Virus record (IMG/VR): IMGVR_UViG_3300032291_001375 | Coordinates: 1 to 32,693 of that record | Source of the DNA: a virus | Length of the DNA: 32,693 bases | Direction: 5' to 3' (one strand) | Shown here: one piece after another, positions 11,518 to 13,649 of the stretch | Numbering within the stretch: position 1 is the stretch's first letter | How the letters are laid out: every line of letters begins with the position of its first letter | Notes under the pieces: generated by a model | Told to the model about the DNA's origin: nothing | Databases searched by the model: none | Seen by the model: the letters and a program-made list of their open reading frames with translations, nothing else | Made by a program: the position numbers and the translations under genes

Positions 11518-12193
11518 TTTGCTTGTTAATTTCTTCCATGTACCTTTCCTTGCGGTACTCGTTGAACTGGTAAGGTGTGTTCTTGTACACACGAAAGCGC
11601 ATATCGTTATTCCATTGCGGCAACGCATCGTATTCCTTCATCAACAATTGTTCAAATGCAGGTGGTGCAATGCGCTTTGCTTCTTGTGCCGGTGCTTCTT
11701 CAATCTTCAACTTGTCAGCTGTTTGCTGAATAGCCTCAAGCACCTGTGGGTGTTGGAACATTTCGTAGATGTTGTTGCTGCTTTGCTTTTCCAAATTAAT
11801 GCGTTCACTGATCGCTTGTCTTTTGGTCATGAACTTACGAATCCATTCAAAGAATATCTGCCCATCGATGCGGTTATACACTGGACCAAACTCACCCTTC
11901 ATTGCCATGCGAAAACAAACCTGCAGCTCATCTACTCGCAGATAGTAGTAATCTTCAAGCATTAACTCAGCTGTGAGCGCAAGTTGTTGTGCGTTCATCG
12001 GCTGTTGCAGGTTGAAGTATTGTTGGCACATATCCATCATTGCCACCATGATGTTGACCGTTGCCTGCTGATTTTTATCCTTCCGAATTTCAGCCAGCGT
12101 TGGTGATGTTTTCAGTGCCAAAATCTCGTGCAATTTCACTTCGGTATTGCTTGCGGAACTCTTCAAGTTCACTAATGCGCTTTGCTCTTTCAT
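11507..12193 (-). CDS. Replication-associated protein of unknown function
   Basis: 228 residues, mostly helical. The central part (LTAELMLEDYYYLRVDELQV, then GEFGPVYNRIDGQIFFEWIR) recurs in Bacteroidota phage and mobile-element proteins encoded right after replication initiators. A helicase-loader or primosome role is possible from position only. The ATG at 12193 gives a 104-nt overlap with the initiator gene, so the true start may be a later codon such as TTG 12118 or ATG 12049. The C-terminus is charged and probably disordered (EEAPAQEAKRIAPP). Confidence 0.65.
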   Translation of the reverse strand: MKEQSALVNLKSSASNTEVKLHEILALKTSPTLAEIRKDKNQQATVNIMVAMMDMCQQYFNLQQPMNAQQLALTAELMLEDYYYLRVDELQVCFRMAMKGEFGPVYNRIDGQIFFEWIRKFMTKRQAISERINLEKQSSNNIYEMFQHPQVLEAIQQTADKLKIEEAPAQEAKRIAPPAFEQLLMKEYDALPQWNNDMRFRVYKNTPYQFNEYRKERYMEEINKQNEY

Positions 12194-12875
12194 CTTGAAT
12201 TATGTTTTTTGAGTTATTTGAGTTGTCAAATTTAGAGTTATTTACCATCCAGTTGCGAGCGGATGCTTTCCAATCCTTCATCGGATTGCGACCTTGCTTC
12301 CATCCATTGGCTTCGTAGTAGTTAAAAAATTTCGCGGCCTCGGTGTTTATTTTTTCATCAGTCCACTGCATGTGCTTTTGTACTGAATACTCACCCATGA
12401 AATTGTAAACATCATTTTCGTTTGGGGGTGCGAATGCACTACTATTGTTTCTTGGTTTCTTTGTTTCTTGGTTTCTTTGTTTATCTATAGGGGCAGTGGT
12501 GGTATCAATGCTGTGGTCAATGCCGTTGCTATGCTGTATCAATGCCGTATCCAATGCCGTATGCAATGCCGTGGCTTTTTTGCTACGGCATATTGAGATT
12601 AAAGTGCTGCTATATTGGTTCTTAGATTCTTTGATGATTTCAATGAATCCCCACTTGCTCAAATCGCCAAGTGCTGCAAGATAGGTTCGCTTGTTGCCAA
12701 TGTGCAGACCTTCCATTGTTGCATACGTAGGTAACCCAAACTGCTCTTTCCAACCAAGTCGGTTGTTCAGTTCAATGATCCACATGAACAAAGCAGTGTG
12801 CTGGCACTTCACCTCTGAATGCTCAAAGGAAAAATCAAACCACTTCCGGGAAAGGTCATAACCGTTATTTTTCAT
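12090..12875 (-). CDS. Phage replication initiator (winged-helix, O/DnaD-like)
   Basis: 261 residues from ATG 12875 (MKNNGYDLSRKWFDFSFEHS). An ATG at 12899 would overlap the upstream gene more. Residues about 1-100 look like a replication-type winged helix (ALFMWIIELNNRLGW, then GNKRTYLAALGDLSKWGFIE). A low-complexity middle (TALHTALDTALIQHS, then Gln/Asn/Lys) is encoded by an iteron array. The C-terminal domain has AAKFFNYYEANGWKQGRNPM and DWKASARNW, seen in Bacteroidota replication proteins. It probably binds the origin and loads the host helicase. Having the origin inside the initiator gene parallels lambda O. It overlaps the gene downstream by 104 nt. Confidence 0.75.
   Translation of the reverse strand: MKNNGYDLSRKWFDFSFEHSEVKCQHTALFMWIIELNNRLGWKEQFGLPTYATMEGLHIGNKRTYLAALGDLSKWGFIEIIKESKNQYSSTLISICRSKKATALHTALDTALIQHSNGIDHSIDTTTAPIDKQRNQETKKPRNNSSAFAPPNENDVYNFMGEYSVQKHMQWTDEKINTEAAKFFNYYEANGWKQGRNPMKDWKASARNWMVNNSKFDNSNNSKNIIQDERAKRISELEEFRKQYRSEIARDFGTENITNAG
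12447..12592. other. Candidate replication origin: iterons plus T-rich repeat
   Basis: Six copies of CAATGC(C/T)GT or a one-mismatch variant start at 12506, 12518, 12529, 12540, 12552 and 12564, spaced 11-12 bp, about one helical turn. An inverted copy ACGGCAT at 12585-12591 can pair with the last iteron. Just to one side, the 16-bp unit GTTTCTTGGTTTCTTT occurs twice in tandem (12447-12478), giving a strongly strand-asymmetric pyrimidine tract suited to unwinding. Iterons plus a neighbouring asymmetric tract inside an initiator gene is the lambda-type origin layout. Confidence 0.7.
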
Positions 12876-13080
12876 CGAGTAATTTTTGAAGATGTTCAAT
12901 CATGCGGTTCACTTCATAATCAGTCATTGAAATATATACACCTTCACCATCTGAATCACGATATGCTGACATGAAAATAGCGCCATTGATTCTTGAAAAT
13001 TGAACAAAACATTTTGAACGCATGTCACGAAAACGTGGCGGATTAGTTTCCACTATTGATCTACCTGAATCACGATACAT
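12865..13080 (-). CDS. Small hypothetical protein, 71 residues
   Basis: Starts MYRDSGRSIVETNPPRFRDM. A central strand-rich part (KCFVQFSRINGAIFMSAYRD) precedes a helical C-terminus (EVNRMIEHLQKLLDEK). It is the first gene after the structured leader and promoter at 13.1-13.2 kb, so it is the likely direct target of any leader control. It overlaps the replication initiator by 11 nt. Its function is unknown; a regulatory or replication accessory role is possible. Confidence 0.65.
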   Translation of the reverse strand: MYRDSGRSIVETNPPRFRDMRSKCFVQFSRINGAIFMSAYRDSDGEGVYISMTDYEVNRMIEHLQKLLDEK

Positions 13081-13082
13081 AA

Positions 13083-13181
13083 ACTAAATACCCACCATTA
13101 CACACAAAGGCAACCCAGCGCACGAAAGTGCTATGGCAATGCGGTAATGATGGGATTTAAAATGTTTTTCATCTGGGTTGC
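13083..13181 (-). ncRNA. Structured 5' leader with pseudoknot-like pairing
   Basis: The minus-strand RNA from the promoter at 13186-13215 has two crossing helices. P1 pairs GCAACCCAG (13181-13173) with CTGGGTTGC (13118-13110), 9 bp. P2 pairs CCCATCATTAC (13154-13144) with GTAATGGTGGG (13101-13091), 11 bp with one U-G wobble. Between them is a small hairpin GCAC-TTTC-GTGC (13131-13120). The order P1-P2-P1'-P2' is that of a pseudoknot, or of two mutually exclusive folds. The wobble pairs only on the minus strand (it is a C-A mismatch on the plus strand), matching the promoter direction. The P2 3' arm ends 10 nt before the ATG at 13080. Confidence 0.6.
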
Positions 13182-13185
13182 ATGG

Positions 13186-13215
13186 CAAAGATAGTCAAAC
13201 TATCTCTACTTCCAA
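13186..13215 (-). promoter_or_regulatory. Internal leftward promoter with overlapping palindrome
   Basis: On the minus strand, TTG (13215-13213), a 19-nt spacer and TATCTTTG (13193-13186) match the Bacteroidota consensus exactly. The perfect 7-3-7 palindrome AGATAGT-CAA-ACTATCT at 13189-13205 covers the -7 box and part of the spacer, a natural operator position. It would drive the 71-residue gene, the replication initiator and genes beyond, and create the structured leader at 13083-13181. Confidence 0.7.
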
Positions 13216-13649
13216 ATAATTGTTGCGATCATAAACCCGATTAGCAATCCTGCGCCAAGTATCAACAGCATCTTGCTATTGGTAGTGTCGCATTCAGGCT
13301 CAGCGTTTACGGACATGGGCGCAGGTGCCGGTGCTTTGCGGATGGGTTTGATGGTTAATTGACCAGCTGTCTTATAAAAGTTGCGCTTTTCTTTACGTTT
13401 TGAGTTTTTGTGCTTTCGTATATGCACCATTACAGTCAAAACATTTTCTAATACTTGTTCAGTAAGAGTAACATCAGTCCATGTGGCTATGCTATTCTTG
13501 CTTTTAATGCAGTTGCATTGGTGTAACGCCACAAATAGATTTGAATCTACGTTATACTTTTCGCGCATAACTCTGTGATTAAAGACTTTTGTGTCAAAGC
13601 ATTCTTTTATGCATTGTACATACTTAAATTTGGTTTTATCTCTTAACAT
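13206..13649 (-). CDS. DNA-binding-like protein with C-terminal membrane anchor
   Basis: 147 residues. The N-terminal 80 residues are helical and basic (KFKYVQCIKECFDTKVFNHR) and may form a winged helix. A Lys/Arg cluster (HKNSKRKEKRNF) and a Pro/Ala linker (RKAPAPAPMSV) follow, and the protein ends in one transmembrane helix (MLLILGAGLLIGFMIATIIW). This tail-anchored layout could tether DNA or a replication complex to the membrane, which is inference. It overlaps the nuclease gene upstream by 7 nt, and its 3' end contains the -33 box of the internal promoter. No family is recognised. Confidence 0.6.
   Translation of the reverse strand: MLRDKTKFKYVQCIKECFDTKVFNHRVMREKYNVDSNLFVALHQCNCIKSKNSIATWTDVTLTEQVLENVLTVMVHIRKHKNSKRKEKRNFYKTAGQLTIKPIRKAPAPAPMSVNAEPECDTTNSKMLLILGAGLLIGFMIATIIWK

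Follow-up and report, generated by a model that had tools for sequence, protein, structure and literature searches.

Two long RNA helices cross in the leader that precedes the replication genes of the phage analysed here, so that the loop of a terminator-like hairpin is paired to the 5′ segment of the same transcript. This strongly covarying and apparently undescribed RNA architecture adds to what is known of phage gene control. It recurs in phages of a major environmental phylum, the Bacteroidetes, whose members mostly do without Shine–Dalgarno-based initiation. We regard the existence of an RNA element with crossing helices as virtually certain, and it is very probably a cis-acting leader of replication or early operons. 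As the main mechanism we propose attenuation, in which the leader would gate read-through into the replication genes (probability about 0.5). The leader probably sets the amount of replication-gene product. Cultured carriers make the element directly testable (Flavobacterium 11b, tooticki and elemo; Polaribacter Danklef and Freya; Olleya Harreka).

The window, that is, the whole 32,693-nt stretch of DNA that was analysed, is a phage record from IMG/VR, and its terminase shares 48% identity with the terminase of Flavobacterium phage 11b. On its minus strand, a 125-nt gap lies between a membrane-protein gene (13649–13206) and an ORF of 71 amino acids. The features of this locus are listed below in the direction of transcription.

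13186–13216, minus strand: promoter of the Bacteroidetes sigma-A type, TTTG-N19-TATCTTTG, by sequence match
13189–13205, no strand assigned: 7-3-7 palindrome AGATAGT-TTG-ACTATCT, a putative DNA operator overlapping the −7 box; arms covary
13173–13181, minus strand: P1 5′ arm GCAACCCAG, its start predicted at +1; covariation, 7/9 pairs with double changes
13155–13172, minus strand: L1, an A/U-rich conserved loop, AUGAAAAACAUUUUAAAU; leader alignment
13144–13154, minus strand: P2a 5′ arm CCCAUCAUUAC; covariation
13140–13143, minus strand: P2b 5′ arm CGCA; 4/4 pairs intact in 71/71 leaders
13120–13131, minus strand: P3 hairpin GCAC-UUUC-GUGC; double changes in 4/4 pairs
13110–13118, minus strand: P1 3′ arm CUGGGUUGC, within the P2 loop; covariation
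13103–13106, minus strand: P2b 3′ arm UGUG, set apart from P2a by a bulged U (13102); covariation
13091–13101, minus strand: P2a 3′ arm GUAAUGGUGGG; covariation
13081–13090, minus strand: U-rich linker UAUUUAGUUU up to the start codon, a weak U-run; from sequence
12865–13080, minus strand: ORF of 71 amino acids, the first gene past the leader; one of nine unrelated groups found at that place
12090–12899, minus strand: putative replication-initiator gene (P0003), with homologues in Polaribacter Danklef phages

The TTTG-N19-TATCTTTG layout is that of the primary promoter of Bacteroidetes (PMC7366714). Because the TAnnTTTG box spans −12 to −5 in Flavobacterium psychrophilum (PMC9723704), the predicted +1 is 13181, the first G of the P1 5′ arm. 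The spacing of 4 nt from the −7 box to P1 recurs in type-A relatives. At least 6 of the 7 arm positions of the operator palindrome are complementary in 58 of 70 type-A leaders, and its arms change jointly (for example AGATAGT/ACTATCT and ATATAGT/ACTATAT). Some relatives have lost the palindrome and retain promoter and leader (e.g. L048, L109, L122); there, an extra gene has apparently been inserted upstream.

Three helical parts make up the leader RNA: P1, of 9 bp; P2, which crosses P1 and in which a bulged U separates 11 bp from a further 4 bp; and the small hairpin P3. Written as DNA, the arms are GCAACCCAG/CTGGGTTGC for P1 and CCCATCATTAC/GTAATGGTGGG for P2, the latter with one U–G pair. 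The parts follow one another from 5′ to 3′ as listed, with UUGCCAUA between P2b and P3, a G between P3 and the P1 3′ arm, and CUU between the latter and UGUG; the pseudoknot spans about 90 nt. The promoter, the palindrome, the 9- and 11-bp crossing helices, the 4-bp hairpin and the U–G pair had all been described in a sequence-only reading of this DNA and are present, as is the 10-nt distance that it gave from the end of the P2 3′ arm to the ATG at 13080. Its 11 bp of P2 stand as well, although it overlooked that the helix continues by 4 bp (CGCA/TGTG) past the bulged U. Neither strand of the 32.7-kb window contains a better crossing-helix pair: this one has −38.6 kcal/mol, three shuffled windows give at most −36.0, and 0 of 100 shuffles of its 400-nt region reach its value. 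The leader RNA is also more stable than its shuffles (z = −2.6).

Three protein searches of viral contigs yielded 160 loci, 120 of which carry the leader, in 82 unique stretches. Seventy-one of these leaders could be parsed, and 51 of them are structurally distinct. P1 is fully paired (9/9) in 65 of the 71 and shifted by one register in the other 6; P2a (11/11) and P2b (4/4) are complete in all 71. The covariation counts are based on an alignment of 49 sequences (A1), in which 99.5% of cells contain standard pairs and double changes occur at 18 of 28 pairs (P1 7/9, P2 7/15, P3 4/4). Double-change cells number 209, as against 58 in shuffles and 1–33 in slid controls. Both crossing helices are therefore preserved through compensatory changes in related phages, the decisive result of a check that the sequence-only reading had proposed. 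Among the distinct leaders, the arm pairs comprise 1091 Watson–Crick, 128 G–U and 0 A–C combinations. As an A–C combination here would be a G–U pair in the opposite strand, this ratio places the selection on the sense RNA, in agreement with the earlier claim that the pairing is selected as minus-strand RNA, and it rules out that an antisense RNA or a DNA palindrome is what is selected. No full-consensus antisense promoter was found near the leader on the opposing strand. A slippery run in L1 raised the option of programmed frameshifting, which was rejected since the run is not conserved.

P1 is the most variable part of the element, with a mean identity of 57–63% in its arms and 12 variants among the 51 leaders; the loops are conserved (L1 85%, J2/3 96%). 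Judged by these sequence identities, the loops appear to be what is recognised, and P1 resembles a private code.

The same architecture recurs without sequence similarity. In a Pedobacter prophage whose initiator is 41% identical, the sequence is unrelated and the arm order is the same: GGTTGTCAGC, AATATTATCCCTACAGACC, a GTGC–GCAC hairpin, GCTGACAACC, GGTCTGTAGGGATAATATT and ATG. A generic crossing-helix scan, run without a sequence model upstream of homologous or analogous genes, matched in viral contigs (L146, L148, L151–L153, L233 and L239), in prophages of Sphingobacteriaceae genomes (L248, L253 and L242), in Flavobacterium phage 11b and Polaribacter Danklef, in Flavobacterium elemoE and tooticki-type phages, in Polaribacter Freya and in Olleya Harreka. 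In Polaribacter P12002L, the element immediately precedes a gene annotated as a primosomal protein. A refined scan added elemoA, and Cellulophaga phi13:2/phi19:3 can be read by eye as the same architecture. Scanning gave no convincing element in Bacteroides LoVEphage, Cellulophaga phi10:1 or Flavobacterium 6H. Searching phage records at the nucleotide level with the window locus returned zero matches. So did a sequence-based model (R1) in 395 Bacteroidota genomes, a result that carries no information because leader sequences diverge and the search had no positive control.

In a shuffle test of 19 representatives, 17 beat 100 of 100 region shuffles and the other two beat 98–99; having been picked as best hits, they make this test optimistic when taken alone. 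Independent support for the distant elements therefore comes from their repeated position beside a TAnnTTTG-like box and, in most cases, before replication genes. By eye, several short-loop members have the P1 3′ arm inside the apical P2 loop, which is closed by a P2b of 3–4 bp (GAG/CTC, GGC/GCC) together with an internal loop, for instance GAGTA/GAAA or GGA/AAA. An AAARACAUUY-like motif ends L1 in most distant types. Three genomes (tooticki, the Pedobacter prophage and L066) contain two copies, always with differing P1 sequences. In L066, the two type-A leaders (3–112 and 2347–2455) are 2.3 kb apart; the first has a TTTTTTT run after P2 and is missing the small-ORF AUG. Leader-like crossing helices were also seen in Riemerella phage RAP44 (minus strand of L287, near 30550), where the operon that follows includes an anti-repressor gene and not a replication gene; P1 can be extended there to TGTTAAACCATCGTG/CACGATGGTTTAACA, and P2 is AGGCGTAAG/CTTACGCCT.

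The 8 nt after P2 are 71% U in the 17 representatives that were found without a U criterion. The tail reads TTTTTTTT in P12002L, UAUUUAGU (a weak U-run) in the window's type and ACTCAATT, without a U-run, in the first Pedobacter prophage element. In most of the distant relatives, P2 is followed by a strong U-run and thereby looks like an intrinsic terminator, one with its loop base-paired to the transcript's own 5′ segment; the earlier reading missed this point. A simple short-loop terminator scan returned none at the window leader, its 3–8 nt loop limit excluding such a design. The start codon follows closely: P2 ends 9–17 nt before the AUG in 71/71 type-A leaders, and across types the pseudoknot ends 6–27 nt before it. 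In P12002L, the start codon lies only a few nucleotides past the U-run. A second promoter would not fit in between, so transcription of the downstream operon has to pass through the element.

When the RNA is cut just before the P2 3′ arm, P1 is present in the minimum-energy nested fold of 19/19 representatives (complete in 17), and when the full RNA is folded in the same way, P2 is preferred in 17/19. This suggests that during transcription P1 should form first and P2 afterwards. Nested folding models cannot show whether the two helices persist together, and because their arms do not overlap, a true pseudoknot is possible. The mutually exclusive switch envisaged in the sequence-only reading thus holds in part: P1 comes first and P2 replaces it in nested folding, but the helices share no arm and could coexist.

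For the attenuation mechanism, we infer that the 5′ end of the replication-operon mRNA is a conserved cis-acting pseudoknot and that transcription begins at the first P1 nucleotide. In the nascent RNA, P1 would form first and join the extreme 5′ end to the future loop segment of P2. P2 would then form around P1, and the long hairpin together with the U-rich RNA would act as an intrinsic terminator with a loop anchored to the transcript's 5′ end. How far RNA polymerase reads through into the replication genes would depend on the balance of the P1-held state against the completed P2. In phages with a gap of 6–12 nt to the AUG, the same balance would also set start-codon accessibility, and a DNA-binding repressor at the palindrome would add control at the promoter level. 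The two helices, the strand under selection, the recurrence of the element, its position and its U-rich tails are observed; termination, control of read-through and any trans-acting factor belong to the proposed model. The attenuator reading is weakened by the poor U-run of the window's own type (UAUUUAGUUU) and by its absence from one Pedobacter prophage element. The P1 sequence diversifies but stays complementary (51 leaders show 12 variants, and in each of the three two-copy genomes the copies differ), so a terminated leader RNA could conceivably act in trans, by pairing with the loop exposed in a nascent leader that has an identical code, much as the loops of plasmid antisense systems do. 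We consider this very improbable; if true, it would make replication control dependent on copy number and co-infecting phages incompatible wherever their codes agree.

The main rival to attenuation, especially for the window's own type, is translational control, which is on balance unlikely but deserves serious weight. Here, the pseudoknot 6–27 nt before the AUG would block or position the 30S subunit, perhaps stabilised by a phage or ribosomal protein, as by gp32 at the T4 gene 32 leader. The uniform 9–17 nt between P2 and the AUG in type A, the window U-run that is too weak for a strong terminator, and the higher identity of the loops than of the P1 arms, as expected for a binding site, are in its favour. 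However, the AUG is more than 20 nt away in L253 and Danklef, a ribosome site that only has to be unstructured does not call for anything as specific as a U-run immediately behind P2, and the first gene is not a constant regulator. Another rival, an improbable one, would couple the leader to a small peptide: a 13-codon ORF in the window (13129–13172, MKNILNPIITALP, pattern MKxxLNPxxTALP) begins in L1, and a ribosome on it would cover the P2 5′ arm and keep both P1 and P2 from forming, so that the switch would sense translation. All 71 type-A leaders have its ATGAAA start, and about 60 encode exactly 13 codons despite frame-shifting indels. Yet some type-A members preserve neither the frame nor the peptide, one L066 copy has no AUG, P2 constrains the ORF nucleotides anyway, and the leaders of Harreka, elemoE, P12002L and 11b lack the ORF. 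Being frequent in type A and absent from most other types, it is at most accessory.

Two further explanations concern the transcript itself. P1 could lock the mRNA 5′ end from +1 against 5′-end-dependent decay, and the 4-nt spacing from box to P1 in type A does put the predicted +1 at P1 (PMC9723704). In other types, however, P1 starts about 10–28 nt past the box; a locked 5′ end is therefore not general, and this role has little probability. Slimmer still is the chance that promoter, pseudoknot and terminator make a trans-acting RNA of about 100 nt, to which the adjacent gene is incidental. The combination of promoter, structure and U-run is the layout of a bacterial sRNA, and the high variability of P1 would suit one, but in unrelated phages the element is consistently followed, after 6–27 nt, by the gene that opens an early or replication operon, with no room for a separate promoter.

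That the leader stands just before replication genes, as the earlier reading had proposed, is borne out. The predicted structure of the putative initiator has an N-terminal fold weakly like winged-helix proteins, without significant matches. The first gene after the type-A leader belongs to nine unrelated groups, the leader staying in place as the gene changes; these groups include initiator-like proteins, DUF6291, DUF1376, a GIY-YIG protein and a DNA methylase. Pfam assigns the first genes to DUF6291, DUF1376, GIY-YIG, DNA methylase or nothing, and none to SSB. This makes autoregulation by the product of the first gene, one of the functions suggested earlier, unlikely. The 71-aa ORF of the window carries a repeated YRDS motif (MYRDSG...SAYRDSDGEG) and has few close relatives in viral contigs.

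The earlier statement that no described family has this layout agrees with Rfam 15, which gave no gathering-threshold match in the window or in ten loci carrying other types; relaxing the threshold to E ≤ 10 added nothing but spurious snoRNA matches to the opposite strand. A literature search, with coverage of subscription journals and preprints mostly missing, returned no description of such an element. An HDV-like ribozyme, for which P1.1, P4 and the catalytic C in J4/2 would be expected, was rejected: there is no HDV match at E ≤ 10, only CUU separates P1′ and P2′, and the predicted +1 coincides with the would-be cleavage site. Other known ribozymes and riboswitches were dismissed for want of an Rfam match. 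Intrinsic-terminator attenuators (leader-peptide, antisense or riboswitch) likewise combine a promoter, a terminator-like stem with a U-run and a controlled operon, and a stem and U-run between promoter and first gene are found in most distant types. The competing helix differs: it overlaps the terminator stem in those systems, whereas P1 pairs the terminator loop with the 5′ segment of the transcript and shares no arm with P2, so P1 is not a classical antiterminator. The HK022 put RNA is also a short structured RNA that starts early phage transcripts, and its two stem-loops modify RNA polymerase (PMC9378689); they are consecutive and do not cross, unlike the helices described here. The STAXI motif is a pseudoknot RNA near genes for DNA-handling proteins (PMC2864571), but it occurs as tandem repeats of two or three pseudoknots, in contrast to the single copies with promoter and terminator-like P2 seen here.

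The nearest functional analogue is the T4/RB69 gene 32 leader, in which a pseudoknot also lies in the mRNA leader of a phage replication gene, upstream of the start codon (PMC535899). There, a pseudoknot of about 28 nt is followed by an unstructured, UUAAA-rich stretch of more than 40 nt and by the SSB gene (PMC535899). Here, the pseudoknot (about 90 nt in the window) is 6–27 nt from the AUG and is followed by a U-run and a variable gene. Of the features compared, an H-type leader pseudoknot is shared, in the form of covarying crossing helices, and two are lacking: the gap in all type-A leaders is 9–17 nt in place of the long unstructured stretch, and Pfam detects no SSB among the nine first-gene groups. 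In L096 (1570–1857) and four relatives (L113, L121, L129 and L135), a GIY-YIG nuclease ORF directly follows the leader, which recalls T4, where the gene 32 pseudoknot has the GIY-YIG endonuclease SegG as its neighbour (PMC535899). In L003, L006, L058 and L076, the usual first gene after the leader is replaced by a gene with a DNA methylase domain.
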